From a virus: DNA of 36,557 nucleotides. Shown piece after piece: positions 2,486 to 32,649 of the stretch; the first letter of the stretch is position 1, and every line of letters starts with the position of its first letter. A model generated the notes under the pieces. The model had not been told where the DNA came from and made no database searches. It was given only the letters and a program-made list of their open reading frames with translations. A program made the position numbers and the translations under genes. The stretch lies in the IMG/VR virus record IMGVR_UViG_3300023284_000638, positions 1 through 36,557 of that record; one strand, written 5' to 3'.

Positions 2486-2775
2486 AAAAAAATAATTTTA
2501 TAAAAGTTTGAAAAAGTTAGTGTTCAAATAGTGCCTATACTCTCTCTAGGCGCAGATTTTTTCACTCAAAAAATATCGTTTTCAAAAAGCTTCAAAAATT
2601 TTCATTTTATTTTCTCGAAAAAATTCATTTTAAAAAGTGCCATTTAAAGGCTGTAGACAGCGATTTTTGACTACTTTTTGAGAAAAGTTTTTAAACTTTT
2701 AGTTTTTTCTCGCTAGCAAATACTTTTGTTCGAAAGGCTAAAAGGTGTCGTTTAAAGGCTGTAGACAGCGATTTT
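2486..2775 (+). repeat. Dispersed element R1 (between large terminase and portal)
   Basis: This non-coding stretch fills the whole gap between the terminase stop and the portal start. Its core, 2486-2717, is 232 bp like the other copies. The right inverted-repeat arm (AAACTTTTAGTTTTTTCTCG, then CTAGC) is intact, while the left arm is degraded and keeps only TAAAAGTTTGAAAAAGTTA. The motif starting GTGCC and continuing TTTAAAGGCTGTAGACAGCG occurs at 2637 and again, as GTGTCG then the same, at 2745-2775, abutting the terminase stop. Central differences from R2, R4 and R5 are few. Confidence 0.85.
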
Positions 2776-3978
2776 CTACACTGTTAATCCTTCCATTATT
2801 GCCGCATATCTTGTAGCATCCCATAAATGATTATATCCATCTACTGGCTCATTCAAGCTTATGCCATTTACTTTCTTCCATTTATAATTTTCCTGCTCGT
2901 TTCTAAAATCTTCATCCTCGACTATGTGGAGCTTAAAACATTTCAACATATCTATTCCATACCTGATAGACCCATTGAATTTTTTAGCAGCGTATATCTT
3001 ATGATGCTTTCTTCTCATTGCTGATATCATACCCGCGTCATGGCTGTCTGCCCAGGCATGAAGCCCGGTTAAGTGCTGATCTAATACCTTCAGTAGCTCA
3101 TTAGCGTTTGGAGTTGGTGCATAGTGCAGCTTCTGTAGAAATAAATTGCCGCCTATCCTGCCTATCTTGACTAGTGCTGTAGGGTCGTTAGTGAATCCAA
3201 AATCTAGGCCATGATATATTAGCTCACATTCAGCAGGAAATTTATCTATCCATGTTACATGCTGAAATATTAATCCTTCTGGAACAGACCGCAAACCTAG
3301 CCCGTAAACGTTCCAATTGTATTCATCTGCTGTGCCTTGCTCTATGTTGAACGGGTGGGGCCTCCTGTCTTTTACTGGTAGGTGTCTGTCTTCAGGGTGC
3401 CAAGGCTCATAGGATAAAATCTTTACTTTCTCTGCATTGCTTATATGGGGATTATCTAAGAATGTGGTCCTTAATAGGCTTACATCATTCCTCTTTTCTA
3501 AATCATAGGCCCAATGTTTAGTAACTGATGGGTTGTAGTCGAACCACCATAATTTACGACACCTCATTTCGTACTGATTGAAGATCTCTTTATCTATATC
3601 TAGCACCTCGTTCATCCAAAAATAGTCAGATCCCGAACCATGGACCTTAGACACTGCATCAGCACCCAGGAGGTTTATAGTATTGCCAAATAGATTGAAC
3701 CTGTTTAATTCCTTACGTCCTGCACTAGGAGAGGGTATGCCAAACATGGGAAACCGCCTGTCGAAATCTTCGAAGAGTGTTGTTTTAAAACTGTTGTATG
3801 TCTCCTTGACTATATGGATAGTGGCTCTTCGTTCTATCTTAGTACATATGTAAATAAGAAAGTCTACTGATGACCACGTTTTGCCGGATCTACTAGATCC
3901 TTCTAGCATAACGCCACGCTTGCCAGAGTGTAGCTCATTACATAAATGAATTAAATTAGGGTTGATGACCTTAGACAT
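2776..3978 (-). CDS. terL: Terminase large subunit (Terminase_3, PBSX-like)
   Basis: A 400-residue packaging motor with ATPase and nuclease domains. The Walker A motif is GSSRSGKT at residues 27-34, and a hydrophobic strand ending in an acidic residue (YFWMNE, near 117-122) fits Walker B. The RNase H-like nuclease domain begins around residue 255 with YHGLDFGFTNDPTALV. A later WADSHDAG and the terminal NHLWDATRYA supply the remaining acidic residues. Length is normal for the family. The ATG lies only 2 bp from the edge of R2, and a candidate promoter overlaps that edge, so expression is probably controlled from R2. The small subunit lies upstream but is separated by one gene and two R elements. 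Confidence 0.93.
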   Translation of the reverse strand: MSKVINPNLIHLCNELHSGKRGVMLEGSSRSGKTWSSVDFLIYICTKIERRATIHIVKETYNSFKTTLFEDFDRRFPMFGIPSPSAGRKELNRFNLFGNTINLLGADAVSKVHGSGSDYFWMNEVLDIDKEIFNQYEMRCRKLWWFDYNPSVTKHWAYDLEKRNDVSLLRTTFLDNPHISNAEKVKILSYEPWHPEDRHLPVKDRRPHPFNIEQGTADEYNWNVYGLGLRSVPEGLIFQHVTWIDKFPAECELIYHGLDFGFTNDPTALVKIGRIGGNLFLQKLHYAPTPNANELLKVLDQHLTGLHAWADSHDAGMISAMRRKHHKIYAAKKFNGSIRYGIDMLKCFKLHIVEDEDFRNEQENYKWKKVNGISLNEPVDGYNHLWDATRYAAIMEGLTV

Positions 3979-3979
3979 A

Positions 3980-4315
3980 AAAGAAAATCAAAAGTAAAAG
4001 TTTGCAAAAGTTACTGTTCAAATAGTGCCTCTACTGTACTGAATTGGCTATTATTTCGTTTAAAAATTATCGTTTTCAAAAAGCTTCAAAAAATTTCATT
4101 TTATTTTCTCGAAAAAATTCATTTTAAAAAGTGCCGTTTAAAGGCTGTAGGCAGCGATTTTTGACTACTTTTTAAGAAAAGTTTTTAAACTTTTGGTTTT
4201 TTGTCGCTAGCAAATACTTTTGCTCGAAAGCCTAAAAGGTGCTGTTTGCAGTGAGTAGAGGCACTATTTTAGTCTTATGGATTTATAAACTTTTAGTTTT
4301 TTTCAGAAAGTTTTT
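3980..4315 (+). repeat. Dispersed element R2, with inverted partial copy
   Basis: The core is 3980-4211, again about 232 bp. Bases 4060-4143 are identical to the matching blocks in R4 and R5. The right arm reads AAACTTTTGGTTTTTTGTCG then CTAGC; the left arm is degraded. After the core comes the conserved flank (CAAATACTTTTGCTCGAAAG), then at 4242-4303 an inverted partial copy of an element's left end, recognised by TAGAGGCACTATTTTAG and AAACTTTTAGTTTTTTT. The element reaches almost to the terminase ATG. Confidence 0.88.
3989..4022 (-). promoter_or_regulatory. Candidate promoter for terL inside R2
   Basis: On the minus strand TACTTTTG (3996-3989) matches the Bacteroidota -7 pattern TAnnTTTG, and TTTG at 4022-4019 is a possible -33 box. 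The spacing is 22 bases, one more than usual. The implied leader would be only a few bases long before the ATG at 3978. This part of R2 differs from the other copies, so it may have been adapted as a promoter. Confidence 0.35.
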
Positions 4316-4370
4316 TGATCCGGTGTAAATGTAACGAAAAAATTAAGAAGCCTTGTAGATCTGGTCGATC

Positions 4371-4379
4371 TGTGGATAA
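4371..4379. other. Perfect DnaA-box sequence between R2 and R3
   Basis: TGTGGATAA is the exact complement of the DnaA consensus TTATCCACA. It lies in the spacer between the two tandem R elements. A single 9-mer match is expected fairly often by chance in a genome of this size, so this is weak evidence of an origin by itself. Confidence 0.3.
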
Positions 4380-4389
4380 GATTTACTAT

Positions 4390-4700
4390 AAATAATAATC
4401 GAACAGAATATTTTTCTAGCGAGAAAAAACTAAAAGTTTGAAAAAGTAGCTACCTAAATAGTGCCTCTATTGACTTCAAACAGCGATAATTAAGGTTAAG
4501 AATTTCGGTTTTGAAAAACGATCGAAAAATATTTTTTTTAATTCGTGAAAAAATTCATTTTAAAAAGTGCCGTTTAAAGGCTGTAGGCAGCGATTTTTGA
4601 CACTTTTTTGAGAAAAGTTTTTAAACTTTTAGTTTTTTCTCGCTAGCAAATACTTTTACTCGATAGTCGAAAAAGTGCTGTTTAAGAGACGTGAGGGCAT
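4390..4700 (+). repeat. Dispersed element R3
   Basis: The core is 4416-4647, exactly 232 bp, bounded by a perfect 24-bp inverted repeat (4416-4439 and 4623-4646) that starts CTAGCGAGAAAAAACTAAAA. The centre has diverged from the other copies (about 4500-4550), but the motifs GTGCCGTTTAAAGGCTGTAG and CAGCGATTTTTGAC remain. Homology with R5 extends beyond the arms on both sides: AATAATAATCGA on the left, and the terminator with GGGCATAAA on the right. Confidence 0.88.
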
Positions 4701-4704
4701 AAAG

Positions 4705-4730
4705 AAAGCCCTGAAATCTATCAGGGCTTT
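4705..4730 (-). terminator. Intrinsic terminator after the exported protein gene
   Basis: A perfect 10-bp stem (AAAGCCCTGA / TCAGGGCTTT) with a 6-base loop, followed on the minus strand by TCTTTATGCC. It lies just downstream of the gene ending at 4752 and upstream of R3 and terL, so it should separate early or packaging transcripts from terL transcription. The stem is symmetrical and could act on either strand. Confidence 0.75.
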
Positions 4731-4751
4731 GTCATCTTTCGATATTGATTA

Positions 4752-5183
4752 CTAACATGAAGAGATTACATGTCGGTGTTGAACCCTTCGTAACCTCCGA
4801 TACGCTGTGTTTTGGTTCTGTCGATCTGTGTCGAATTTCGTCATTAAGGTTTCCTTGTTAAGCCAATCACTTCTATGATCATCATTGTAAATCGATAAAT
4901 AAAAAGGCTGTAGATAATCCTTATCATACGTATAATCAAAGGAGCCTACAGTAGTAACCGTAATTACGTCTTTTGATATTCCATTTATTATTGGTTCTAT
5001 GTCATTGACTTTAGAAGTCAATATAACATCGGTTACGATTGCCTCTACTTCCGATAAATTGGCTAATTCAATGGCCCCGATATCTACATCAGTGGCCTTT
5101 TCGATTACACAGGCATTAGCTACACCTGCGCCTATAATTACAAATACGATCATAATAAATAGGGATATAAAATATTTTTTCAT
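4752..5183 (-). CDS. Predicted exported protein of unknown function (3' end possibly frameshifted)
   Basis: A 143-residue protein starting MKKYFISLFIMIVFVIIGAG, a clear signal peptide with a VANAC site that could be cut by signal peptidase I or act as a weak lipobox. The rest shows no family I recognise. The last 20 residues are Arg-rich (YRRLRRVQHRH) and written in codons such as CGG, AGG and CGA, unlike the rest. Removing one T from the run at 4810-4813 (an A run in the coding sense) would instead end the protein RIGGYEGFNTDM at 4766. It lies between the two terminase subunits; an envelope role such as superinfection exclusion is only a guess. Confidence 0.6.
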   Translation of the reverse strand: MKKYFISLFIMIVFVIIGAGVANACVIEKATDVDIGAIELANLSEVEAIVTDVILTSKVNDIEPIINGISKDVITVTTVGSFDYTYDKDYLQPFYLSIYNDDHRSDWLNKETLMTKFDTDRQNQNTAYRRLRRVQHRHVISSC

Positions 5184-5197
5184 GAAATAAATGTAGC

Positions 5198-5743
5198 CTA
5201 TTCTTTCTTACTATCCAAAACGTCAGGGAATGCATCCCCTACAATCTTTCTGTCATCGTCTACAGTCATATGAGTCTGTTCCCTTAAGCCTAGATCTCTG
5301 GCTATTATATTAGCATTCAATACCCCTGAAGCTGCGCCTTCGAACTTTTGAGAGTACATAGTACGCTCTATGCGCGCTATGACTTGTGAAAATTCCGTAT
5401 ATTCTGGATTGGTCTTGTAGTCTCTCAAACTATACATATCTAGATACAGCTCTAAGCTCTGCCACGTGTAAGCCCTCATATGTGGCATTTCTACGCGTTT
5501 AGCGTCCTTACCTTTCCAATCCAACACCATTATAGGGTTTGCATCATACATTTTAAAATACTCTTCAGCAGCCTTCCATAGTGTTTCAGGAGTGAATTTC
5601 TTACTTCTTCCATGCTTAAATCTTTGCTCCCAGATATGATTACCCTTAGTAAATTTTCCGTCTTTGTCTCTACCTTCTAATAGTGGAGGCTTCGTAATCG
5701 GCTTTTTTTTAGCCTTAATATTTGGTTTTTTTCGTGGTGGCAT
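5198..5743 (-). CDS. terS: Terminase small subunit
   Basis: A 181-residue DNA-recognition subunit of the packaging terminase. It opens with a very basic stretch (MPPRKKPNIKAKKKPITKPP), followed by a helical region with FTPETLWKAAEEYFKMYDANP and MPHMRAYTWQSLELYLDM, the pattern of helix-turn-helix gp3-like small terminases. The C-terminal part has YSQKFEGAASGVLNANIIARDLGL, the most recognisable block of this family. The start codon overlaps the stop of the upstream membrane-protein gene by one base, and the stop is 14 bp before the next start. It would bind the packaging site, for which R2 and R3 are nearby candidates. Confidence 0.85.
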   Translation of the reverse strand: MPPRKKPNIKAKKKPITKPPLLEGRDKDGKFTKGNHIWEQRFKHGRSKKFTPETLWKAAEEYFKMYDANPIMVLDWKGKDAKRVEMPHMRAYTWQSLELYLDMYSLRDYKTNPEYTEFSQVIARIERTMYSQKFEGAASGVLNANIIARDLGLREQTHMTVDDDRKIVGDAFPDVLDSKKE

Positions 5744-6054
5744 TATTTAAAAAATTGATACTTACAAAAAAGAGCTAAGTCTATTGTAAGTAATGATATC
5801 ATGACATAAAATATAATCATACTGTAGCTAAAAGAGGCTATAGTCAACATTATAAATACTAGATATGTTCTAGATTGTTTTATCAATTGTCGTTTTAGAC
5901 GATGATCATCAGTAAATATAGTCAATATAATGACTTCGACAATAAGGAATGAGACGATAATGAAAAACCCCGATAAGCCGCTAATATGTTCACCTGCTAC
6001 AGCAATCATTACCCCGGCTATAATTACAATCCAATTGTGCATTAAATATTTCAT
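5743..6054 (-). CDS. Small multi-pass membrane protein
   Basis: A 103-residue protein with about four hydrophobic segments (near 8-25, 27-46, 63-79 and 82-98) and a short basic loop (HRLKRQLIKQSR) between the second and third. No family is recognised. It overlaps the small terminase start by one base and is clearly in the same operon. Holins can look like this, but two better holin candidates lie at the end of the late region, so a different membrane role is as likely. Confidence 0.6.
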   Translation of the reverse strand: MKYLMHNWIVIIAGVMIAVAGEHISGLSGFFIIVSFLIVEVIILTIFTDDHRLKRQLIKQSRTYLVFIMLTIASFSYSMIIFYVMISLLTIDLALFCKYQFFK

Positions 6055-6071
6055 GTTATTTTTGTTTTAGT

Positions 6072-6136
6072 GGAGGAGGTAAGAGGTAGAGATAACAGGG
6101 AGTGTCAGCAAACCTGCTACCTCTGTGGTAGTCCTC
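6072..6136 (-). other. Long inverted repeat / RNA hairpin
   Basis: The gap between two genes contains AGAGGTAG (6082-6089) and CTACCTCT (6117-6124), with CAGG/CCTG nested inside and GAGGA/TCCTC outside, forming a long interrupted stem. It has no U tract on the minus strand, so it is not a simple terminator. It may be an RNA processing or regulatory hairpin in the early operon upstream of the membrane protein and small terminase. Confidence 0.55.
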
Positions 6137-6168
6137 TTAAGCCCCAAATATAGTTATTTATATGGCAA

Positions 6169-6483
6169 TTAAAATTTTGCTCCTTCACTACTAAATGATG
6201 GCCCACCCGTTTTTTTAGGTTTTATCGCCTTATTGACACCATCTGACATTTTTTCTAATGTCTCTTCATCTATCCAAATAGAATCTGGTTTAGTTGTTTC
6301 TCCTTTCTTCATTTTAGGCTGTATTGAATATCTTCTACATCCGTTTAACCATAAAGCACTACAGTCAATAATCCCCGTGAAGTCACTTACTTTATCTTTA
6401 ACTTCATCTCCATTGTCAAATTCAAAATCTACTATCATAATAATATTGTTTGTTATTGAAGCATTGTTTAAGCCACGCCTCAT
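6169..6483 (-). CDS. Conserved small phage protein (D-F-x-G-I ... W-L-x-G-C-x-R-Y type)
   Basis: Up to 104 residues. The central segment, GDEVKDKVSDFTGIIDCSAL followed by WLNGCRRYSIQP and WIDEETLEK, matches a small family common in phages and prophages, in which a short beta-barrel-like core is followed by W(F/I)DE. Its function is not known. The first ATG overlaps nothing upstream, but the family core suggests that the internal ATG at 6438 (MIVDFEFDNGDE) is the true start, giving 89 residues. It lies between the VRR-NUC nuclease and the membrane protein. Confidence 0.65.
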   Translation of the reverse strand: MRRGLNNASITNNIIMIVDFEFDNGDEVKDKVSDFTGIIDCSALWLNGCRRYSIQPKMKKGETTKPDSIWIDEETLEKMSDGVNKAIKPKKTGGPSFSSEGAKF

Positions 6484-6494
6484 AGCTTTACTAA

Positions 6495-6842
6495 TTATAT
6501 TCTAATATATTTCTCAATTTCAAAATAGCAATCCTCAAAATTATCATGCACATCTACCCGGTAACCCTGCGCTCTTAGCTTATCATGTATTGCAAGCTGT
6601 TTTTTATCAATCTTACCTACTTCGTTTTTAAGCTCAATAAAGAATCCATGATACTTGCCCCTAGCCAGTGCCAGGAACATGTCAGGGATACCCGCTACTA
6701 CTCCCATAGACTTAAATTTAGTTGCTTCGATTATGTGCCGCTTTCCTCCGTTCGGTATATGGAAGAATAACTGCCTTAATTCGGGGTACTCATTCCAGAC
6801 CGCCTGAAATACTTCGCTTTGTATTTTTGCTTCGCTTTTCAT
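6495..6842 (-). CDS. VRR-NUC domain nuclease
   Basis: A 115-residue single-domain nuclease of the PD-(D/E)XK superfamily. Visible signatures are an early glutamate (E10) in the first helix, HIPNGGKRH, the motif GIPDMFLALARGKYHGFFIELKN giving D54, E70 and K72 as the catalytic set, then GKIDKKQ and a final Gly-Tyr strand. Stand-alone VRR-NUC proteins in phages are thought to act as structure-specific nucleases, for example on branched or recombination intermediates. The gene lies directly downstream of the iteron cluster, close to the primase/helicase. Confidence 0.88.
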   Translation of the reverse strand: MKSEAKIQSEVFQAVWNEYPELRQLFFHIPNGGKRHIIEATKFKSMGVVAGIPDMFLALARGKYHGFFIELKNEVGKIDKKQLAIHDKLRAQGYRVDVHDNFEDCYFEIEKYIRI

Positions 6843-6866
6843 GATTTCTAGTCTTTATTTTCTTGC

Positions 6867-7226
6867 TGTCACCAGTTGTCACCAGTTCAATTACTTTAAT
6901 GTATAGTGCTTAATCAATTAATAATCAGTTACTTATGAGTGCTGTCACCAGTGTCACCAGTAAAAAAGATAAAACTTTCTCTATCAGTATTAGAAAAAAA
7001 AGTAACATAAAAATTTTATCTAACATTATTTTTTATTCTGAGTTATAATCAAAAATTAATGGTGACAAGTGGTGACATTATATAATTATATTTAATATAT
7101 ATATAAGAACAGGTACAAACCGCGATTAATAGACCTTAGAGCAATGTGATAGAAAGTTAGAAAGAAATAATATAACTTTAAGATGTCACCAGTTACCCTT
7201 AATCCATCTGGTGACATCTGGTGACA
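6867..7226. other. Iteron cluster, probable replication origin
   Basis: Nine copies of the 10-mer TGTCACCAGT or its complement lie in this gene-free stretch: 6867-6876, 6877-6886, 6943-6952, 6952-6961 and 7184-7193 in one orientation, and 7059-7067 (shorter), 7068-7077, 7207-7216 and 7217-7226 in the other. Several are tandem pairs, with very AT-rich DNA between them. Clustered iterons next to the gene for a VapE-type replication protein (7338-9599) are typical of an origin. A reading frame at 7092-7310 crosses the iterons and is probably not a gene. The rest of 6843-7337 shows nothing else except an operator-like sequence at 6919-6935. Confidence 0.7.
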
Positions 7227-7337
7227 CTGAGTACAACTTTGTACTCTACACGGAATTCGTATAACTTTTTTATATATTACTACACTATCGAGACTCGCAA
7301 GCTTTTTCATGATTTTCTACCCTTATTTATAATGATT

Positions 7338-9599: not shown

Positions 9600-9600
9600 T

Positions 9601-9891
9601 CTATATATTTTTCACATATACTATATCTGTCGGATTTTCTACATCTTCTGGTTCTACCCGATTTAAAAGCTTTTTTAAAGAAGATTCTACAGAATTGCCC
9701 GCGTAGTGACTATAATTATTTATATAAGAAGTGAATACAATTTTATTATCGACTATTTCCACCTTTGCTGAATAGTAATCCTCATCATGTCTAGAGGCTA
9801 TTTTACCAACTTCTTTGTAAAAATACTGCAAACTTTCTATTTGTTGATTTCTTAATATTGCATACGCAATTTTTATTAGTAATTTTTTCAT
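9601..9891 (-). CDS. Hypothetical protein
   Basis: A 96-residue protein with no family I recognise. It has a basic N-terminal helix (MKKLLIKIAYAILRNQQIES) and a central alternating-strand region (YYSAKVEIVDNKIVFTSYI). A helix with SVESSLKKLLNRVEP follows. Its stop is 1 bp before the primase/helicase start, so the two are probably co-translated. Confidence 0.65.
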   Translation of the reverse strand: MKKLLIKIAYAILRNQQIESLQYFYKEVGKIASRHDEDYYSAKVEIVDNKIVFTSYINNYSHYAGNSVESSLKKLLNRVEPEDVENPTDIVYVKNI

Positions 9892-9900
9892 GATTTTATT

Positions 9901-10347: not shown

Positions 10348-10360
10348 ACTGTTAAATACA

Positions 10361-10632: not shown

Positions 10633-10633
10633 A

Positions 10634-12473: not shown

Positions 12474-12476
12474 GGT

Positions 12477-12692: not shown

Positions 12693-12700
12693 AGTCTTAA

Positions 12701-14024: not shown

Positions 14025-14139
14025 TTATGAGACGAATTTTTCAGAATAGGGCGGTGGCTTATTGCTTTCGTCCACCTCGTCCACGTCACAGGTCATTGAT
14101 GCCTCTATCTGTATTGTGGCTTCCGCTTGCCCTATTCAT
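14025..14139 (-). other. Two overlapping mini-ORFs, doubtful
   Basis: Downstream of the MerR-like gene one frame (ATG at 14139, overlapping that gene's stop) encodes 17 residues. A second frame (ATG at 14096) encodes 23 residues, MTCDVDEVDESNKPPPYSEK and three more. Neither is convincing alone. They could be one small protein split by an indel, or chance. Confidence 0.2.
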
Positions 14140-14419
14140 CACTTTTCTTTATTTCTTTAATCGGTATCTCTACATCACTCTCTATACTCGCCAAAGCCCC
14201 TTTGACGGTATAAAATCCGGTAGCCATTAATCTAGCCATTCTCTTTATAAAATACCTCTGGAAGGGTGTATAAATACGTCTCCCTCGCCTAACATCTACA
14301 GGCTGTATTTTCTCCAACATGCCACTATTTAGCCAATACTGTATATTTTGACCCGTTACGTGTGTCTCCCTGGATATTTCATAAATGCTGTAATACTTCT
14401 TCTCTATCTTATCGCTCAT
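14132..14419 (-). CDS. MerR-type helix-turn-helix regulator
   Basis: A 95-residue protein made almost wholly of a MerR-like winged helix: YYSIYEISRETHVTGQNIQY is the first helix-turn-helix (about 9-28), then WLNSGMLEKIQPVDVRRGRR is the wing, and RIYTPFQRYFIKRMARLMAT the second helical pair. The usual C-terminal dimer helix and ligand domain are absent. Phage proteins of this form serve as early regulators or excisionase-like factors. No integrase is present, so regulation is more likely. Palindromic sites near 18134 and 6919 are possible targets but this is untested. The start overlaps the upstream stop by 4 bp. Confidence 0.78.
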   Translation of the reverse strand: MSDKIEKKYYSIYEISRETHVTGQNIQYWLNSGMLEKIQPVDVRRGRRIYTPFQRYFIKRMARLMATGFYTVKGALASIESDVEIPIKEIKKSDE

Positions 14420-14806: not shown

Positions 14807-14807
14807 A

Positions 14808-17794: not shown

Positions 17795-18049
17795 TTATGA
17801 TGTATGTAAATTCATGATTCCCTTAATAACCTCACTGTGGTTAATTTCTAGATACTCTCTTAATGAGAGGTTGTAGGTCTTCTCTGGACGGTCAATATTT
17901 AACCGTCCGAGATCGACCATCATACGCAGGAACATACCTACTTGTACGTATATCTTGCTAAAATTTCGTACTGAGTCGTACTGGTGGATAATTTCGAGGT
18001 GTAGATTATCTACTACCTCCTGATAATGATTCTTATTCATTGCTGACAC
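17795..18049 (-). CDS. First early gene, hypothetical protein
   Basis: An 84-residue helical protein, starting MSAMNKNHYQEVVDNLHLEI, with FSKIYVQVGMFLRMMVDLGR and LSLREYLEINHSEVIKGIMN. No family is recognised. It is the first gene after the early promoter at 18067-18098; a second ATG at 18040 is possible. First early genes often act on host take-over, but there is no direct evidence here. Confidence 0.6.
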   Translation of the reverse strand: MSAMNKNHYQEVVDNLHLEIIHQYDSVRNFSKIYVQVGMFLRMMVDLGRLNIDRPEKTYNLSLREYLEINHSEVIKGIMNLHTS

Positions 18050-18066
18050 TTTAAATTTGAACTATC

Positions 18067-18098
18067 CAAATCTACAGTATCATAATGTCCTACGCAAG
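18067..18098 (-). promoter_or_regulatory. Early promoter of Bacteroidota type
   Basis: On the minus strand CTTG at 18098-18095 is followed after exactly 20 bases by TAGATTTG at 18074-18067. This matches the Bacteroidota sigma pattern (T)TTG-N19-21-TAnnTTTG. The expected start, about 7 bases on, lies near 18060, giving a short leader to the ATG at 18049. Its place at the head of the early operon fits. Confidence 0.65.
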
Positions 18099-18133
18099 GA
18101 AAATCATAATTATTATTTGATAAATCATTTAAC

Positions 18134-18154
18134 TGACTAATAATCAGTCACTTA
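18134..18154. promoter_or_regulatory. Palindromic operator-like site
   Basis: TGACTAATAATCAGTCA (18134-18150) is an interrupted palindrome about 35 bp upstream of the early promoter. The 17-mer starting at 18138 (TAATAATCAGTCACTTA) recurs with one change at 6919-6935, inside the iteron region. A shared regulator of early transcription and replication is possible; the MerR-like protein is a candidate. Confidence 0.4.
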
Positions 18155-18179
18155 AAACATGTCTCATCAGCTTTAAACA

Positions 18180-18442
18180 CCCCTTTTTAGCCTTTCGATG
18201 GATAGTGTGAGCTAGCGATAGAAAACCAAAAGTTTAAAAACTTTTCTTAAAAAGTAGTCAAAAATCGTGGTCTACAGACTTTAAACGGCACTTTTTAAAA
18301 TGAATTTTTTCGAGAAAATAAAATGAAATTTTTTGAAGCTTTTTGAAAACGATAATTTTTAAGTCTAATAATCGATGTTTCCAATGAGTAGAGGCAATAT
18401 TTCAGTAGTAACTTTTTCAAACTTTTAGTTTTTTATCGCTTG
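18180..18442 (-). repeat. Dispersed element R4 (inverted, late/early boundary)
   Basis: A copy in the opposite orientation to R1, R2, R3 and R5. Core 18211-18442 is 232 bp. Bases 18279-18362 are the exact complement of the 84-bp block in R2 and R5. The arms are CTAGCGATAGAAAACCAAAA (18211 on) and AAACTTTTAGTTTTTTATCG (to 18439). The gap 18050-18449 otherwise holds only the early promoter and operator. The inversion places the flank that faces terminators in R3 and R5 towards the early genes. Confidence 0.88.
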
Positions 18443-18449
18443 TACATTA

Positions 18450-18917
18450 TTATTTATTTTTTATTTTCTCCCAACCTCTACTACCAAAATAAGCCAGAAA
18501 TACCAACACTGTGAGCTTTTCTAGTAAGTCTATCCAAATGTCTTTTAGAATAAATCCTATATTTAAACCGTCCAACATCATGAACAAGAACAGGAAAGAT
18601 AGAAGAGATATTAAGGTATATGGTCTTATGTTTTTAGCTAGTTTACTGTCACTATTCATGTCTGCCTGCCAGCGCTTAGTAATTTCTTTTGCCTCCTCTA
18701 GATCTAACTTCAACAAATCTAGCGCTGTAGCCCTCTCCTCCTCATCTAGGTGGTTTGAAGTCCTGATACTATGAGCCAGGTCCTCTAATTGTTTGATCCC
18801 TGTTACGCCTGCGGCTATGCTTAATCCCATTTTAGCTAGTGGCGCTGCTTTCTCTCCTAATTTAGACAGAAACATACCTACCTTGCTCCTGCCTGTTCTC
18901 TCTTTATGATCTCCCAT
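18450..18917 (-). CDS. Holin-like membrane protein (3TM holin type)
   Basis: A 155-residue protein resembling the three-transmembrane holin family also seen in gene-transfer agents. The N-terminal basic part is followed by a weak hydrophobic segment (about 30-41) and an acidic helix (LDEEERATALDLLKLDLEEA). The family signature RWQADMNSDSKLAKNIRPYT leads into two strong membrane segments (about 98-121 and 132-148). It would form the inner-membrane lesion at lysis. It ends the late region, next to another single-pass membrane protein, and is bordered by R4. Confidence 0.78.
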   Translation of the reverse strand: MGDHKERTGRSKVGMFLSKLGEKAAPLAKMGLSIAAGVTGIKQLEDLAHSIRTSNHLDEEERATALDLLKLDLEEAKEITKRWQADMNSDSKLAKNIRPYTLISLLSFLFLFMMLDGLNIGFILKDIWIDLLEKLTVLVFLAYFGSRGWEKIKNK

Positions 18918-19296: not shown

Positions 19297-21216
19297 TTAT
19301 TGATCACCGTAAACGGTTGCGTGTGTGGTTGTTATCGTACTAGAACCGCTATTACGTGTAATTTGTGGTTTTATTTTATCCCCTTTAGTAGCTCGCAATG
19401 GAAATCTTTTTGTGATACTCACAGATGAAGAGCCTACAGCCACAGGAGCCTCGACCGGATCTGGTAAATTGACATATCCAGCCCCTATATCATGGACCCA
19501 TTCAAATCTAAAGTCTACTGTTCCGCCTGAACTCAATACTGTAAAATCAAAACCTACAGATCCATCAAAATCCTCATTCCCTAAATACACAAATTCGCCT
19601 ATAACAGGATCAATCAATTTCCATCTTTCTATGGTCGTTCCTTCAATTAATCCAACGCCCGCTGTACCAAAAGCCATATCTCTAAATGTGTTATTTACAA
19701 TTGCGGGATTTACCGTTACATTACCGTTTACAAATGCAGTTACTATATAATGACTATCCTCTTGATCAGGGTTGTTAAATGAAAACACTCTTTGATTTAC
19801 TTGGTTTAATCCTTCTGTACTCCAATTACCTGCTCGCGTAACTGTAAAAATCTCATTAACATCGAATGAATTTGTTTGCACATTGTAAATTATATTACCT
19901 CCACCATTGTAATCAATAGAATCATCAGCATCCAATACAATACCACTTCCGTTTGATAATCCATGCGCTGTAGATGTTACTGTGATCCCATTCATTAAAT
20001 AACTTCCTGTCGCTTCGTCAGTTCCAAAAGATATATTTTCTAATTCGAAAGAAGATGCACCCGTTACCGATACAACACCCGTGACATTATAAGATGTATT
20101 AGTAATAAATCCAGATATTGTGACCGTAGAACCAAGTAAAGGAGAGGTCCCGCTATGATTAAACTGAGCTATACCGCTTGAATCACTTACGCTTGTTATC
20201 CCTGTAGCCCCAATTGAATTATTTGCAACTGCTGTAAATGTTCCTGTAGCTCCTGATACATCAAAGAATTGATTCTTCTTAACATTATTACCTCTCATCA
20301 CGAGCCTTGCACTATCACTAAATCCAGGATCTACACGGCAAAACTTTGCAAATGCATCACTGGCCATGATATTATCATATATTTGAATACTACCTGATCT
20401 TATGCCGATAACTTCAAAAACATTTAATACATTTCCATCAAGCGCTAATATTAGACAATCTACAATAGTAGCACTAGCACAATTTATAAGTTTTAACCCA
20501 TCATTAATAACTTCAAAAACAACACCTGGCACAAAAAAGTCAGTAAGATTTTTTACTGTACCGAGATCTTTCCATCTGTTAAAATCTGGGAACTTAAAAC
20601 TAATTACACCACCATCAATATCAAAAAGTGATCCTGTCTCATTTCCTTCTATAATAGTATCAAACACAGCAAGGGTTCCAATGTCAATTCCTTGGAACAT
20701 TTTCTCAGTTGTATTTGTATAAGTAATTGTGTTTTCTGATCTAGAAGTGGTGACTATTTCCATGTTCGCGCCTGTAGCTATCAAAAAAGGTAGCGTTACA
20801 GTAACTGGTTTCATTAATTGAAACCTGGTATTTGGAGTAACGTCAATTCTAGTAGCAGGAACCACAGTGCCAAAATCAGATTCAGCAAATACTTTTACTA
20901 AATTTAAAGGCTCTACACTAGCCGCGCCTAAGTCGTCAAAAAAAAAACCGTTAGCCTGCCAATGTAGCACTAATTCTTCAGGGGTAGTACTTGCGAATTT
21001 ATCAAGAGATGCTAAATTATAATCTATGCCAAATCTTGCATTTCCAACATGTCTATAAATGGTAATGATATCACCATTTACATCAATTTCACTTTTTGCG
21101 GACGTAAACAATGATGTTCCATCACTAAAAATAAGCTTCGATCCCTTTGTAGCTAATTCTACATTAATCAAAGTTTTAGGTGTTACGTTTTTATGTATTA
21201 AATTTTCAGCTCCCAT
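19297..21216 (-). CDS. Tail fibre or spike protein with repeated beta domains
   Basis: A 639-residue structural protein. Its N-terminal 100 residues are a typical tail-attachment region (FDDLGAASVEPLNLVKVF). The middle, rich in Gly, Asn, Ile and Val, has the spacing expected of a beta-helix. Residues about 310-450 hold repeated units with GSTVTISG ... YNVTGVV ... SFELENI and later TSTAHGLSNGSGIVLD, a small beta motif common in phage fibres. The end (RFEWVHDIGAGYVNLPDPVE) is probably a beta-sandwich. It likely recognises the host surface. No enzyme site is seen. Confidence 0.72.
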   Translation of the reverse strand: MGAENLIHKNVTPKTLINVELATKGSKLIFSDGTSLFTSAKSEIDVNGDIITIYRHVGNARFGIDYNLASLDKFASTTPEELVLHWQANGFFFDDLGAASVEPLNLVKVFAESDFGTVVPATRIDVTPNTRFQLMKPVTVTLPFLIATGANMEIVTTSRSENTITYTNTTEKMFQGIDIGTLAVFDTIIEGNETGSLFDIDGGVISFKFPDFNRWKDLGTVKNLTDFFVPGVVFEVINDGLKLINCASATIVDCLILALDGNVLNVFEVIGIRSGSIQIYDNIMASDAFAKFCRVDPGFSDSARLVMRGNNVKKNQFFDVSGATGTFTAVANNSIGATGITSVSDSSGIAQFNHSGTSPLLGSTVTISGFITNTSYNVTGVVSVTGASSFELENISFGTDEATGSYLMNGITVTSTAHGLSNGSGIVLDADDSIDYNGGGNIIYNVQTNSFDVNEIFTVTRAGNWSTEGLNQVNQRVFSFNNPDQEDSHYIVTAFVNGNVTVNPAIVNNTFRDMAFGTAGVGLIEGTTIERWKLIDPVIGEFVYLGNEDFDGSVGFDFTVLSSGGTVDFRFEWVHDIGAGYVNLPDPVEAPVAVGSSSVSITKRFPLRATKGDKIKPQITRNSGSSTITTTHATVYGDQ

Positions 21217-23981: not shown

Positions 23982-23985
23982 GATC

Positions 23986-25795: not shown

Positions 25796-28026
25796 TATTC
25801 AGTAGATTTTCTGTAAAGCCTCAATAGCGTAAATGTACCTTTATTTTCTTCTAATTTGTAATCAACTTGTAATAAAAATCCTTCAGATTCATTGCCATTC
25901 CAATCCTCAAAGCTTATAAATCCCTTCGGATTAGCTCTTAATATCTGGTACTGATCCCTAGTTAGTTCATGCTCAAACTCGTAGATTTCAGGGTAGTAAA
26001 TCACCTCATTATTATCTATAGCGGGGAGGGTGTTTAATCCTGCATTTTCATCTACTAATAATTCCCCTGTTATTTGTGAGGTCATGATATAGTTAAATGA
26101 TCCAAAGGCAAAGGCATACTCTTTTTTAGTTCCTTTTATCAGGTTTCCGCCTAGTATTTTGGCCCAATTTTGCAAGTTTCTACCCGGTGAAATTCTAGCG
26201 TTATAGATAGTTTCAGGTGAAAATACATTATTAAATTGACTAAAAAGTTCGTCTCTTTCAGTTTTAAAACCTCCTCCGTCTCTAATAACAGTCACTAAAA
26301 ATATTTCGTCATCTAATCGGCTATCTTCATTGGTGTTTTTAAGTCTCCTTTGACTCTCAATTTCGAACCCTGCGGCCCTGTAGATACTTCTAATGTCTAG
26401 CTTTCCCTTAGTTTTAGATAGTGGTGAAGACTGTTTCCTAACCTCGTTAAATTCATCTATACCGTTTATCTGTTTGATATTTTCTAGCTTCGGATATCCA
26501 TATTCTATAGATCCAAAATATCTAGAGGTGTCATGCGTTCTGAATAGATCTGTGACCTGTCCCAAGGTGAGTAGTTTTATATTTTTGTCGTAAAAGAATG
26601 GTTTAGGTTCTAATCTAATTATCTGAGTGCCATCATCTAGGATTTCAAAGCCCCAACCAAGGCAATATAATGAACTGAGAGACTGAAAAAAGTCCACCCA
26701 ATTAGTGAATATATCTGTATCCACTCCTCTAATATTAGATCCATTCGTAATAGCTAATAAAGATCCGGGACCATCTTGAGCCTGTGTCACAACCGTATCA
26801 GTCCTACCGAAAAAATCAGACCTAAAACAGTCTTGCTTATTAGTCATAAACTGACACATTTTATTAGCTGCCTCATAAATCATTATAACCTTAGAAGTAG
26901 TAGGAGGAAATACCGTGTTTTGTGAGATCCTAATAAATGTAGTCGCTTTTATAGCTTCTATGCCTAATTCATGGCTCATAGTGGAGGAGGCAGCTAGAAA
27001 AGATTGCGTATAATCTGCTGATACCGTCAATGTATAAAAGATAGCTATCTTATCCCCTACCTCTATAACTGCATCAGTTTGTTGAAAAGTTTTAAGTTCA
27101 AAAGCGCTTTCAAACGTAGTAGAACCAGGGCAAGTAGGTATAACCCATGCAGTACCTATTTGCTGAGAAACTTTTATATTATCTTCTGAGTCCACATGAG
27201 AGTAAAAAGCAGCTATAACTATTTGTCCCAAGTCGTCATTTCCACAGCCTGAAACATCCACGTCTCCGCCTACCCTATTTGCTGTTACTCTGTGCTTAAG
27301 GTTTAATGAAATATCTATCTGTGCTAAACCAGATTCCTGCGCTTGATATATTTCATTGAAAGCAATAGAATTAAAACCCCATCCTAAATTAAAGTTAGTC
27401 TCTAGCTCTCTGGCTACTGTGTCTGATCCGTCTATATTCCCAAATACAGTACCACTTCTACTTCTTGTACATCCTCCCGGAGTACCGCAAGCATCAAATT
27501 GAAAATTTATTTGACCGCCTTGTAGAAATTCTGTTTCGTCTATAGGGCTTACATCTATTCTCTTGACGATATCTTTAGAGTGAAATACTATATTTTCTAT
27601 AGGTGTAGCAGGTATGGTAATACCATTTTCGCTAATTAAGGACTCTAAATTTAGGTCCCTTTCAGACAGGTTTATGAAATTCCTTTCAAATCCTGTTTGC
27701 TCTATGTTGGTCTCTAGATCTAATTCAGCCAATTTGAAATTACTCATTTTGATCTGACCTGTATAGATATTTTTCTGTTCGTATAAATTGGGGTCGTACT
27801 GAAAGATATTACACGTTACTTCTGCATCTATTCCTTCTACTGCCTCTACGGAGTGTATAAATGCTCTGGCTGCCTTATTGAAAGCTAAATTCAATGTAAA
27901 TTCGAAGAATACACCATCATTTACGTCACTTCTTTTAATGGCTAATTCTAGTTCGTCCATACCTTCAGGGTCTGGATTTACAGTAAGTGCCAATTGTGAC
28001 GGGTGCAGTAGCTGTGCCTTTAACAT
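25795..28026 (-). CDS. Large tail baseplate/tip protein
   Basis: A 743-residue protein directly after the tape measure, where siphoviruses encode the distal tail or hub. The first 120 residues are strand-rich (FFEFTLNLAFNKAARAFIHS and IYTGQIKMSNFKLAELDLET), fitting a distal-tail-like fold. A long central part has a carbohydrate-binding-like mix of strands, and the end (INGIDEFNEVRKQSSPLSKT, LLQVDYKLEENKGTFTLLRL) is probably hub-like. No lysozyme domain is seen. It starts 1 bp after the tape measure stop. Confidence 0.72.
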   Translation of the reverse strand: MLKAQLLHPSQLALTVNPDPEGMDELELAIKRSDVNDGVFFEFTLNLAFNKAARAFIHSVEAVEGIDAEVTCNIFQYDPNLYEQKNIYTGQIKMSNFKLAELDLETNIEQTGFERNFINLSERDLNLESLISENGITIPATPIENIVFHSKDIVKRIDVSPIDETEFLQGGQINFQFDACGTPGGCTRSRSGTVFGNIDGSDTVARELETNFNLGWGFNSIAFNEIYQAQESGLAQIDISLNLKHRVTANRVGGDVDVSGCGNDDLGQIVIAAFYSHVDSEDNIKVSQQIGTAWVIPTCPGSTTFESAFELKTFQQTDAVIEVGDKIAIFYTLTVSADYTQSFLAASSTMSHELGIEAIKATTFIRISQNTVFPPTTSKVIMIYEAANKMCQFMTNKQDCFRSDFFGRTDTVVTQAQDGPGSLLAITNGSNIRGVDTDIFTNWVDFFQSLSSLYCLGWGFEILDDGTQIIRLEPKPFFYDKNIKLLTLGQVTDLFRTHDTSRYFGSIEYGYPKLENIKQINGIDEFNEVRKQSSPLSKTKGKLDIRSIYRAAGFEIESQRRLKNTNEDSRLDDEIFLVTVIRDGGGFKTERDELFSQFNNVFSPETIYNARISPGRNLQNWAKILGGNLIKGTKKEYAFAFGSFNYIMTSQITGELLVDENAGLNTLPAIDNNEVIYYPEIYEFEHELTRDQYQILRANPKGFISFEDWNGNESEGFLLQVDYKLEENKGTFTLLRLYRKSTE

Positions 28027-28027
28027 T

Positions 28028-31000
28028 TTATCGGTATTCTTCGTTTAATAATTTATTCCAATTTTCCCCGCTCTTGGTAAGCTTGTCTGTAGCGTGTTTA
28101 CTAATCCTTAAGTGCCATTCTTTTTTATTTTTGATAGTTTTCTCTGTGCTTACACCCTGTCTCAAAAGTGCTCTCATTCCATTACTTAACATTGCTGACT
28201 GACTATCTCTGTTCCTTGGAGAATAAGCCATAGAACCAGACAAACCACCAAACTCTATAGGATTACCCATCATTTTTTTAGTCTCTTCTGCTGTGAAGAT
28301 CTTAGATCCCATTGGTACTGCATCGTCACCAACTAAAATAGGTCCTGTATTACCTGCATATCTAAGTTCTCCTGAAGGAGTAACCCAAGATTCTGCACCT
28401 GCCTCATTTATCATTTTCACACCGCTAGGCGCTGAATCTATACCCTTCATGAATGCTGGAATAGGTTTAGCCAATACTGCGGCTAATTGAACGGCCCCAA
28501 TAGCTGCAACAATTGCAGAAAATGGGAGTCCACCAGTGATAGGAGAAATAGCAATAGCTTTACCTATTGCGGTAGCTGTATTAACTGCTATACTAGTGGC
28601 TGCTAGTGCCTTCTCAAATATTGCACGTTTTCTATCTGCCTTTGCTTGCTCATCCTCTACCGCCTGCCTTCTTTTTGCAAACTCTATTTTTAACTCTTCT
28701 TGTCTCTGCCGCTTCTAATGCTGTGGCCTCCTCCTCGTTAATTACTTCTAACCTCTGCGCTCTCTTCTCGTCTTCAACTTCATTAAATGTATCAATTAAG
28801 CTCAATGAAGCATCAAAAGCAGCGGCCTTAAGCTCGTTTATAGTATCTTGCAGCTTCCCTTCATTCTCTATTATTTGCTCATTTGTAGCTTCAGATAGTT
28901 CTAATCTCACTGCTGCTATGTTCCTGTCGATTTCTGAAACGTCTATACCTGCATTTTCAAGCAAACTTTTTCGCTCCTGAAGGAAATCTAGCTGCTGATT
29001 TAATGAATCCCTTTGTGCATCTGCCTGAATTTCCAACTTTTTACGCTCAAATTCCTCTACAGTATCTATCTCACCTGTTCTAAATTGCTCATTAAGATCT
29101 ATAAGCTGTTCGATTCTTTCCGTTTCTGCATCTAATTGCTGATCTGCAAAAGTATCATCAAATCTAGCTAGGTTCAATTCGCTGATTCTGTTTGCTAATT
29201 CTTCCTGAATATCGCCTACTTTCTCTGCAAATTCCTCCTCATTTACTATGCCTTTTTCTAGCTGATCGTCTAACACCGATAATCTGAGATCCCCCAACTC
29301 TAATAAAGCCTGTATTCTGTCATCTGTCAAATTTCTTTCATTGTCTGCTATCTGCTGAAGTCGATCTATAGAGGCTAGCTGTAGAGTCTCTTCTATCTCT
29401 GCGGTATCAGCCAATACTATACGCCTTTCCCTGATGACTTCTAGCAGCCTTCCTTCAATGATCTCACTTAATCCTAGGTTACGTATCCTTTGATTCAAAA
29501 CTACAGCGTCTTGCTCCCTTAAAAGCTCATTTTCATCAAATGACACCTTAGTAAACTTCCTGATAGTCTTGATTTGCTGATCAAAAGAATCATCACCTAA
29601 CTTAACCAGTTCATCTAAGCCTTCTTGTCTGTTTCTAATCGTTCGCTTATCGTCATTGATTATGCGCTCATTAATAGTTTTTACGTTATCGAACCCATCT
29701 ATCAGAATATCTAAATCCTTCTCTAGCCTGTCCTGCTTAAGCTGATCTATTTCTTGCTGATTTTGGGCCTCTATAGCTAGCGCAGCATCATTTACCTGAA
29801 TGAATTTAGCTAACGCGTCTGATTGTTGCTGTTCTAAATCCCTGTTTATAGTACCTCTTAATGCCGCATTTTTAACCTGTACATTTATTATATCTAGCTC
29901 TTTCTGTGCTAAATCTATATTTATTCTGGCTAGCTCCGCGCCTTTAATTCGCGCCTTTGCTGCTGCTGCTTCTTGCTCTGCAAATGATTTAGTAGCATTT
30001 CCCGCAGTTATATTTAACTGTTCTATTTCACCCTCTAGCGCTACAGTAGCTACAGTAGCGCCTATAGTGGCCTTCTCTAATTCTATCTGAAGTAGTACTA
30101 ATTTTCTACCCTCTACAAATGCACGCGCTAAAGATTCGGCTAAGTTGTCAAATGCCAGACTAGCAGATTCTGCTGCCCCGGCAAAATCACCCTGAGTAAA
30201 TCTAAATAATGCTGTTCCTAGTCTTACAATTCGGCTAAATACTTCATCTAATACCTCTGTAATTCCTCCCCAAATCTCATTGAATGCGTCTGCTGATGCC
30301 TGATTATTGGTGACGGCGGCAGTCAATAGTGCTATTCCTGCCACTATTGCAGCAATGATGGCACCTAAAGGAGTGGCTATGAAACGCAATGAGGCTTTTG
30401 TACCCGCGTTTATACCTCCTGTAAGCTTAGAAAAGAACCCTACTACTGCGCCGCCCTGACCAGAAATACCGCTAACAGTAACGCCTAAACCTTCTAGCTG
30501 CTCCCTATATGCCCCTATTTGAGTCCGTTGCTTTTCTTGTGCTGTTCCATTATCAACTATTACAGCTGTATTCTCTTCTATCTCCTTATTAATTACCGCT
30601 ATTTGATCAGCATAGGTTTCGTCCGTTTTGGTTAATTGTCTTCTTTGTTGTAGAAGCTCCTTGTTTCTCTTGATTAGCTTTTCTTCCTCACCTAGTAATT
30701 TATTTTGACCGTTAACTAATCTTTTAGTTTCTTCTCTGGTCTTTTTTAACTGCTTTTGTCTCTCAATATATTCATCATTCTGTCTGGATTGAGCGGTTAA
30801 TATTTGCTTATCAATTTTTCCTAGCTCCTCCTGTGCTGTCGTGAGTTTCTTTGTTTCCTCTGATACCTCTTTAGTACTTTTTGCTACATCTAAATTAACA
30901 TCAGCAGCCTTACCCGATCTTGCTAATTTAGCTAGTGTGTCAATCAATTGATTAGCCTCTTGATTTGCTTTACTGAAACTATCAGCAAGTTCTAAAGGTG

Positions 31001-31049
31001 CTGTAATTGCGCCCTCTGTTATTACTTGATTCTTTTTAATCGCAGCCAT
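28028..31049 (-). CDS. Tape measure protein (frame break near 28690)
   Basis: The scaffold that sets tail length. From the ATG at 31049 the first 799 residues are long helices and coiled coils (many Glu, Lys, Gln, Leu), with a hydrophobic segment near 215-245 (LGAIIAAIVAGIALLTAAVT). The frame stops at 28650, but moving by one base at the T run 28687-28691 joins the helix RRVKIEFAKRRQAVEDEQAK to a second hydrophobic stretch (KALAATSIAVNTATAIGKAI) and the C-terminal domain ending at 28028. The repaired protein is about 1,006 residues, suggesting a tail near 150 nm at 1.5 angstroms per residue. As written, the C-terminal 148 residues are separate. Confidence 0.85.
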
Positions 31050-31264
31050 TGTAGAAGCTTTTTAGTGATTGACATTAAAATGAATGCCACATCTTTAGGC
31101 TTCTTGTAATGGAATATCAAGCAAACTGTTGAAAAATACAGCATAAAAGCGATGTATCCAACATTTAAAGAAACCCAAATAGTAACAGGAATAACTAATA
31201 TTATAGGTATCCATATCACTATAATTACTATAAAAGTGCATATTTTACGTAGCATTTTTGGCAT
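31022..31264 (-). CDS. Small membrane protein before the tape measure
   Basis: An 80-residue protein with two or three hydrophobic segments (about 10-33, 36-55) and a basic C-terminus (SITKKLLQWLRLKRIK). It overlaps the upstream gene by 20 bp and the tape measure start by 28 bp, so the start is constrained by coupling. It sits where the second tail-assembly chaperone is usual, but its membrane character does not fit that. Function unknown. Confidence 0.55.
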   Translation of the reverse strand: MPKMLRKICTFIVIIVIWIPIILVIPVTIWVSLNVGYIAFMLYFSTVCLIFHYKKPKDVAFILMSITKKLLQWLRLKRIK

Positions 31265-31907
31265 TTTTGATTAAAACTTTTTTGTATTCACAGTACCTAG
31301 ATACTGTTATATCCTCTGGAACTATAAATTTTAGTGCTGTATTCAGTGAGGATATCACATAATCAAATGAAATGTCCTTAGATCCTTCACCTTCTAGTGT
31401 GGCTAGATCTGCTTTCCTGATTTTAATCTGTGAAATTATATGATTAGCCCTTTTATCTGCTGCTGAAATTGAGGAGGCATAAGCCTTGTCACTGGACAAA
31501 TCTATTTTATAGCCCATTAATTTTAGGTCTGCAATTGTTTTAGTGGCCAGATCTCCGTGACCTTCACCTTTTGAGTATGGGGTAATGAACATCAATAGCC
31601 GTATCATGACCTTGATAACTACGTATGAATTCTCAAGCTGATAGATTATCTTCTGCTCTTCGAATGAATTCGATATATTTTTATCATTGCTTAGATCTGC
31701 GTACTCTAAAATAACATCTCCCCACAACATAGAAAGCGCCTCCGTATTGATTGATTTTAACCTATCGTAATTCCTCACCTTATACAGGTACTTGAAATCA
31801 CCTGTAGAGATGATTTTAAAGAAATTTCGTAAGGGTAATTCCTCACAATTTTTATACAGCTTTAAACGCTTTTGATAAGCGATTTTCAATATTGTCGATA
31901 ATCCCAT
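31245..31907 (-). CDS. Tail-region protein, possible tail-assembly chaperone
   Basis: A 220-residue mainly helical protein. Its start overlaps the upstream gene by 56 bp. The N-terminal segment LPLRNFFKIISTGDFKYLYK and the C-terminal FDYVISSLNTALKFIVPEDI then TVSRYCEYKKVLI resemble a protein encoded just before tape measure genes in Bacteroidota phages. Position suggests a chaperone for the tape measure, but I see no slippery site for the usual frameshift product. Confidence 0.55.
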   Translation of the reverse strand: MGLSTILKIAYQKRLKLYKNCEELPLRNFFKIISTGDFKYLYKVRNYDRLKSINTEALSMLWGDVILEYADLSNDKNISNSFEEQKIIYQLENSYVVIKVMIRLLMFITPYSKGEGHGDLATKTIADLKLMGYKIDLSSDKAYASSISAADKRANHIISQIKIRKADLATLEGEGSKDISFDYVISSLNTALKFIVPEDITVSRYCEYKKVLIKNAKNAT

Positions 31908-32295
31908 CTCTTAAACCGTCATCTAGTAAAACATCTACATTTTTTGGAGTCAATCCGAATATTACTGTACCAAATAACTCTATTAGATCCGGTGTTTTTG
32001 AATCCGAGGAGGTGAAAGGTACTGGAAATTTACTAAAATTACCCTCCCATTGGTCATGAAATACACCCGTCACCCTGGTAGTAATCCTGTCAATTGGTAA
32101 TCCGGCTTCAGATCTAAGAACCACCGTTAGTGGTGCATAGTCACCTAGCGTATTATCCTCTGAATCTACGCCCCTATCAAATAATTGATCATCAGTATTC
32201 AGATCAAATGCCTCTTCTTTTTTGTTCTCTAATTCCTCAAGGGCTATTTTCTCTACATCTATTTTCCTAAGATCCTTGATTAACTTCTCAAACAT
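31852..32295 (-). CDS. Conserved tail/neck protein of Bacteroidota phages
   Basis: A 147-residue protein, helical at both ends with a strand-rich middle. It contains LGDYAPLTVVLRSEAGLPID, RVTGVFHDQWEGNF and LIELFGTVIFGLTPKNVDVL. The last block is shared, in my recollection, with Bacteroidota phage head-tail or tail proteins, where D-L-I-x-x-F-G-x-x-I-F-G-L-T is typical. It opens the tail operon 40 bp after R5, so R5 probably controls its transcription. Exact role unknown. Confidence 0.6.
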   Translation of the reverse strand: MFEKLIKDLRKIDVEKIALEELENKKEEAFDLNTDDQLFDRGVDSEDNTLGDYAPLTVVLRSEAGLPIDRITTRVTGVFHDQWEGNFSKFPVPFTSSDSKTPDLIELFGTVIFGLTPKNVDVLLDDGLRDGIIDNIENRLSKAFKAV

Positions 32296-32314
32296 AGGTA
32301 AATATAACTAAAAT

Positions 32315-32615
32315 AATAATCGATCAATATTATTTTCTAGCGATAAAAAACTAAAAGTTTGAAAAAGTTACTACTAAAATAGTGCCTCTAGTAGCTGCAA
32401 ACAGCGATTATTACAGTTAAAAATTATCGTTTTCAAAAAGCTTCAAAAAATTTCATTTTATTTTCTCGAAAAAATTCATTTTAAAAAGTGCCGTTTAAAG
32501 GCTGTAGACAGCGATTTTAGAGACTTTTTTGAGAAAAGTTTTTAAACTTTTAGTTTTTTCTCGCTAGCTCACACTATCGCTCGAAAGTTGAAAAATGGGT
32601 GTTTAATGGCTGTAT
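32315..32615 (+). repeat. Dispersed element R5 (upstream of the tail module)
   Basis: Core 32337-32568 is 232 bp, bounded by CTAGCGATAAAAAACTAAAA and its near-perfect inverse AAACTTTTAGTTTTTTCTCG then CTAG (one mismatch). Its 84-bp central block is identical to R2 and, inverted, R4. Homology to R3 extends past both arms: AATAATAATCGA before the left arm and the terminator with GGGCATAAA after the right. Apart from this element and the terminator, the gap 32296-32680 holds nothing I recognise. Confidence 0.9.
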
Positions 32616-32623
32616 GGGCATAA

Positions 32624-32649
32624 AAAACCCTGATATATTTCAGGGTTTT
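32624..32649 (-). terminator. Intrinsic terminator after the head/major-tail operon
   Basis: A 10-bp stem (AAAACCCTGA / TCAGGGTTTT) with a 6-base loop, followed on the minus strand by a run of T residues (TTTTTTATGCCC). It follows the gene ending at 32681 and precedes R5, so head transcripts should end here and tail transcription restart beyond it. Confidence 0.8.

Follow-up and report, generated by a model that had tools for sequence, protein, structure and literature searches.

A repeated intergenic cassette of constant length in a phage genome and its possible role as a protein-binding element at operon starts

The genome and its repeated cassette

The window, by which we mean the whole stretch of DNA analysed, is a single virus record of 36,557 bases; a 144-base repeat occurs at either end, so that the genome would measure ~36.4 kb (36,413 bp) if circular. 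All accepted genes lie on the minus strand, and the families identified are large and small terminase, portal, head maturation protease, tail protein, tape measure, holin, primase, helicase, an exonuclease subunit and an endonuclease. The host is probably a member of the Bacteroidota, judging by the names of matching records: 46 of the 67 that match the portal are named Flavobacterium, 17 Polaribacter and 4 Bacteriophage, while the terminase matches are broader (744 records; top names Staphylococcus 104, Bacteroides 97 and Streptococcus 94). For the first 25 kb of the window no close DNA match turned up among phages, and a capsid profile run against genome contigs in search of a host or prophage gave 29 pattern matches, 0 of them confirmed.

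Four intergenic gaps of this record are occupied by five homologous copies (R1 to R5) of one element. A sequence-only reading of the DNA had picked out five copies of ~232 bp, and all five are confirmed: blastn joins 10 of 10 pairs (E 7e-54 to 1.5e-100, over 243-346 bp) and, since it does so for every pair, their similarity is not mere shared AT-richness, the explanation against which that reading had itself warned. In the orientation of the element, a copy runs from a left arm (CTAGCGANAAAAAACTAAAAGTTT) through M_L, a centre, M_R and a right arm to a third site.

2486..2776, plus strand: R1, between the large terminase and portal genes; left arm half lost, M_L 2525-2561, M_R 2632-2668, right arm 2689-2717, third site 2740-2776 (intact)
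3980..4270, plus strand: R2, directly upstream of the large terminase start codon; left arm half lost, M_L 4019-4055, M_R 4126-4162, right arm 4183-4211, third site ~4234-4270 (inverted M_L type)
4390..4730, plus strand: R3, both arms present; M_L 4455-4491, M_R 4562-4598, right arm 4619-4647, worn third site ~4670-4706, terminator-like hairpin 4705-4730
6867..7226: iteron array after the primase gene, 9 copies of TGGTGACA
14132..14419, minus strand: gene for a MerR-type HTH protein of 95 aa (PF13411, 34.9 bits, cut-off 21.6)
18152..18467, minus strand (inverted): R4, between the holin gene and the replication operon; worn left arm 18415-18436, M_L 18367-18403, M_R 18260-18296, right arm 18211-18239, worn third site ~18152-18188
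32307..32652, plus strand: R5, between the head and tail operons; left arm 32337-32364, M_L 32376-32412, M_R 32483-32519, right arm 32540-32568, worn third site ~32591-32627, hairpin to ~32652

Ranked on a gene list without doubtful ORFs, the five largest gaps include four filled by the copies (773, 400, 385 and 315 bp) and one of 495 bp that contains the iteron array. The five cassettes, as bounded in this analysis, hold 1,566 of the 4,017 non-coding bases, and 5 x 232 bp makes up 3.2% of 36,413 bp, matching an earlier estimate of ~3%. Followed leftward, R5 leads to the tail genes, R4 (opposite in orientation to R1, R2, R3 and R5) to the replication genes, R3 and R2 to the large terminase, and R1 to the portal and head genes; the end of R2 abuts a start codon, R5 stops ~40 bp from one, and the interval between R3 and R2 offers R3 no gene of its own. 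The earlier view that copies lie only at module boundaries suits R4 (lysis/replication) and R5 (head/tail), whereas R1 and the pair R2 and R3 flank the large terminase and mark operon boundaries. Their description as non-coding needs a similar adjustment, for while the ORFs inside copies in the R2/R3 region are all shorter than 30 aa, an 85-aa plus-strand ORF (32599-32856) overlaps the right end of R5.

Internal anatomy of a copy

Anchored on M_R, the five copies align over 271 columns with 0 gaps, and in the core (212 columns, -95 to +116) 64 columns vary, through at least 77 substitutions and no indel. In an AT-rich spacer free of constraint, some indels would normally accompany so many substitutions, and selection on the spacing of the DNA is supported by this record, together with the concentration of least variation in M_R (33-37 of 37 positions identical per pair) and the right arm (41-48 of 49). 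M_L is more variable (23-31/37), and the centre of R3 has diverged (46-51 of 70 identical to the other copies), yet its M_R is the same as that of R2. The copies have diverged from each other and differ in their flanks, which makes an assembly error less likely; the 84-bp block said to be identical in R2, R4 and R5 is exactly so. Homology continues ~45-60 bp beyond the right arm in all five, in keeping with the ~45 bp first noticed, and between R3 and R5 it reaches 346 bp in total, hairpin included.

M_L and M_R are two copies of a ~37-bp motif present in 5/5 copies, and the two direct motifs of the sequence-only reading (GTGCC...CAGCGATT) are there with a spacing of 106 bp, GTGC to GTGC, in every copy. 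A further 108 bp separates M_R from the third site, which is clear in R1 (54.3 bits with the motif matrix) and R2 (36.0 bits, inverted M_L type) and worn in R3, R4 and R5, where it falls short of the matrix threshold. We dropped the description of this layout as a ~107-bp tandem repeat in favour of spacing, as the likeness lies mostly in and around M; a lag of 107 or 108 ranks in the top six for R1, R2, R4 and R5 but not for R3. M_R reads AAAAAGTGCCGTTTAAAGGCTGTAGACAGCGATTTTT, and its ends form an imperfect dyad with half-site AAAAAnnGCnGTnTA, read by eye. The M_R matrix hits its own reverse at all five M_R sites with 14.1-15.9 bits, against a best score of 10.7 bits in a control of 3 base-shuffled windows on one strand, and a matrix scan found no M-type match above 14 bits in the window outside the copies.

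The arms, ~180 bp apart, form the 24-bp inverted repeat described earlier in R3 (24/24, extending imperfectly to 47 bp) and R5 (23/24), less well in R4 (~21/24), and not in R1 and R2, where the left arm keeps its inner part alone. R5 is 65% identical to its own reverse complement over 231 bp, and in the window as a whole the top three dyad centres coincide with the midpoints of R3, R4 and R5; the exact centres of R1 and R2 are absent among the 15 dyad centres listed. This symmetry is located in the arms and at positions 69-90, the M region being asymmetric about the centre. Hairpins stand beside R3 (found on the plus strand) and R5 (read from the sequence, absent from the hairpin listing), and none was noticed at R1 or R2.

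Searches beyond this genome

No match was returned by blastn against 50,697 phage and 72,556 plasmid records, and no homologous copy by searching each of 54 related records whole: in four of these the best piece had E 0.006, and among the other 50, five gave short pieces (18-52 bp, E 2e-4 to 0.007). A five-copy profile, which in a substitutions-only calibration recovered 10/10 at each level of 20-40%, was run on 96 loci (8 window pieces and 80 terminase relatives among them) and gave no hit beyond the window at E <=0.01, the best outside hit being 0.97; nor did it at that threshold in 29 further loci or in 4 more. Exact M-motif and arm patterns had 0, 10 and 3 matches in viral contigs, all 13 judged to be chance (best profile E 0.066 and 0.021), and one exact pattern had no match in genome contigs. 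The search of related phages and hosts that had been proposed has found no copy (host genomes being represented by the one exact pattern), and the cassette is known from one genome only. Among the papers listed by literature searches no title or abstract opening described a matching element, which is not to imply that it is unpublished.

The nearest relative by terminase (G005, 69%) has a terminase-portal gap of 100 bp and a gap of 78 bp before a tail gene, each with a hairpin, and no cassette copy is present at these junctions, which match those of R1 and R5. The 64-aa ORF before its tail-gene gap did not match the window's 81-aa gene, and a search with the primase for a closer relative found one, at 33%. 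Long imperfect palindromes in relatives' loci (L028, L030, L036, L044, L084 and others) are unrelated in sequence to the cassette; some may be assembly folds, and those of L036 and L084 resemble site arrays.

Alternative explanations

That the copies are MITE-like non-autonomous elements, moved by a transposase of the host or of another element and tolerated only between operons, is an unlikely explanation, with these points in its favour: the 24-bp inverted repeat and its extension in R3, the occurrence of both orientations, the intergenic placement and the junctions of the nearest relative where no copy lies. It fares worse at the ends of the element, where R1 and R2 have lost half of the left arm and retained the inner sequence, R4 has a worn left arm, and homology runs past the arms, with R3 and R5 also sharing the adjoining hairpin; the earlier argument that such an overrun speaks against a simple transposon applies equally to a mobile element here. 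Visual inspection of R3 and R5, which have both arms, showed no target-site duplication, and no further copy came from the collections searched, which may lack near-identical records and include the single pattern for host genomes. The mobile element first envisaged is weakened by these differing ends and absences, its inverted repeat notwithstanding.

A role in replication, packaging or partition instead of transcription, improbable to a somewhat greater degree, would suit AT-rich repeated sites of which two, R2 and R3, adjoin terminase genes. The separate iteron array, however, is a likelier replication origin than the cassette copies on sequence grounds, and neither five dispersed copies at the starts of gene blocks nor ordinary DNA curvature (of 500 shuffles, 94 to 352 are at least as curved, so that no copy exceeds its shuffles) favours such a role; the proteins scanned included no recognisable partition gene.

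There is also small likelihood that operon leaders carry a structured RNA here, be it antiterminator, terminator or processing signal. Folding does beat dinucleotide shuffles on both strands (R5, z -3.7 and -5.7; R3, z -6.6), but any inverted repeat is bound to fold. Covariation contributes an unfavourable term (+5.68 kcal/mol, from five sequences only), arm pairs show no two-sided change (three pairs with such changes sit near the right end), R1 and R2 have a broken arm helix, R4 lies inverted with respect to transcription, and Rfam at its gathering threshold has no match within the window; the proposal of selection on RNA structure is not supported by these results.

The copies are, moreover, mosaics of one another between which sequence has been exchanged. 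Sites that split them 2:3 fall in blocks with conflicting groupings (R1 with R2 on the left side, R3 with R5 at +71 to +73, R2 with R4 at +79 and +100, and R4 with R5 at +117 to +126), forming 11 runs among 25 sites against 20.2 expected and, from -115 on, 7 among 20 against 16.1, with equally few runs in 0/20,000 shuffles in both tests. Functionless neutral duplications kept similar by gene conversion would explain this clear mosaicism, yet would not account for why copies that have diverged carry no indels, why M_R varies so little next to a variable M_L or why a compact genome retains the copies, and are correspondingly improbable.

A possible protein-binding cassette

Our preferred reading, tentatively held at a probability of roughly 0.45, is that of a multi-site protein-binding cassette at the starts of transcription units, spread and homogenised by recombination. 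Each copy would be a DNA-level regulatory cassette directly upstream of a transcription unit, with M_L, M_R, the arm sites and, in R1 and R2, the clear third M site as putative binding sites held at fixed distances of 106 and 108 bp. A phage or host protein would bind these jointly and time the downstream operon, acting as a late-promoter activator or as a repressor, and the MerR-type protein is, by annotation, a candidate binder. Recombination would have copied the cassette within the genome, in the case of R3 and R5 taking the adjoining hairpin along, and the copies would continue to exchange sequence. The sequence itself establishes homology, constant spacing, the imperfect dyad in M_R, mosaicism, position and absence from the relatives examined; protein binding, an action on transcription and M as the recognised unit are what we infer.

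Several observations favour this cassette: 1) substitutions without indels, and how little M_R and the right arm vary; 2) the hits of the M_R matrix to its own reverse, the confinement of strong M-type matches to the copies, and the occupation by these of most of the largest gaps; 3) the short hairpin gaps without a copy in the nearest relative. Dyad sites at fixed spacing near operon starts are also what operator or activator sites look like, and the odds are slightly lowered because the third site is worn in three of the five copies. Further counts against it are the reversal of R4, the position of R3 ahead of R2 with no gene between, the restriction to one genome and a binder that is still a candidate.

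A host-type promoter common to all copies is not supported, which also counts against the cassette. With a host-type consensus, for a Bacteroidota host that is itself presumed, a significant match occurs at R2 only (reached by 5/300 shuffles), where it is complete and ends 10 bases before the terminase start codon; elsewhere the number of 300 shuffles reaching the match is 282 (R1), 281 (R5), 174 (R3) and 42 (R4), and matches are not enriched genome-wide (8, shuffle mean 5.9).

Comparison with known systems

The Ogr/Delta sites of phages P2 and P4 consist of one short dyad per late promoter. The cassette shares with them dyad sites upstream of late operons and differs in having several sites per copy; no Ogr-type protein was recognised in the window.

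As outlined in the cited accounts, the promoter early stem-loops (PeSLs) of T4-type phages, a PeSL-like motif having also been proposed for the haloarchaeal virus HGTV-1, are likewise repeated intergenic cassettes tied to transcription signals and held to mediate module exchange (PMC4503421, PMC3950731). Unlike the PeSLs so described, the present cassette is much longer, has several sites at fixed spacing and a host-type promoter match that stands out at R2 only, and stands at operon starts, some copies beside a hairpin; the hairpins, terminator-like at R3, adjoin R3 and R5 and do not lie inside the cassette. The SAS/ESAS of Cluster K mycobacteriophages likewise have imperfectly inverted arms ahead of some genes only; in ESAS the arms are 17 bp long, are separated by a short spacer that varies and neighbour a 13-bp start-site repeat, and their function is described as unknown (PMC3203893). 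In contrast, the cassette has 24-bp arms, fixed ~107-bp distances and no 13-bp companion, a comparison drawn from arm length, spacing and distance to the start codon. Dispersed repeats suggesting a binding protein or gene regulation are further described for Cluster O mycobacteriophages (17-bp dyads, PMC4351075) and at gene starts in Gordonia cluster DJ (PMC9753669); the Cluster O dyads, by that description, differ from the cassette in being short, in numbering >30 per genome and in lying within genes in about one third of cases (PMC4351075). By analogy the cassette may work like PeSL and ESAS repeats, and it is assigned to neither.

Implications

The cassette is real and unusual, and is best grouped as one more kind of repeated phage regulatory cassette; its function we infer. 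Phage genomes are compact, and length-constant repeated DNA on this scale suggests function. It is doubtful, although worth stating, that one DNA-binding protein acting on a fixed-pitch (~107-bp) array at each operon start exerts genome-wide control of the phage; if true, a single architectural element in five copies, kept alike by recombination, would switch the lytic programme. Should the element prove to be a control cassette, it would offer a way into how phages that probably infect Bacteroidota time their gene expression, and an example of the concerted evolution of regulatory DNA inside one small phage.

Other sequence features

A further reading frame of note falls within the window:

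4752-5183, 143-aa ORF, weak C-terminal match to Phage_F

The match to Phage_F, the microvirus capsid family, is confined to the final 53 residues and, at 20.2 bits, lies under the cut-off of 25 bits; searches of PHROGs, phage tblastn and solved structures lent it no support. At 18043-18105, 5' of the first replication gene and outside R4 (the inverted copy of the 232-bp element), TTGCG...TAGATTTG resembles a host-type promoter, with a score that was equalled or exceeded in 42 of 300 shuffled sequences.

Repeat arrays

Repeats and duplications were also seen in related records. An imperfect palindrome of 315 bp (L084:1926-2240), packed with TTTCACAAA-like sites, has a 799-aa ORF downstream; in another relative, GTAACCGATGTAACCGAT-type inverted repeats occupy the gap 5' of the terminase genes (L036:1434-1534); and a relative's record (L103 of record G017, 19341-19639) carries a perfect 150-bp tandem duplication, possibly an assembly join.

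Within the window itself, TGGTGACA occurs 11 times against 0.55 expected, with nine copies at 6867-7226, in a 495-bp gap adjoining the primase gene. These nine lie in both orientations, mostly paired at a distance of 9-10 bp, and the array is likely to serve as a replication origin or operator.
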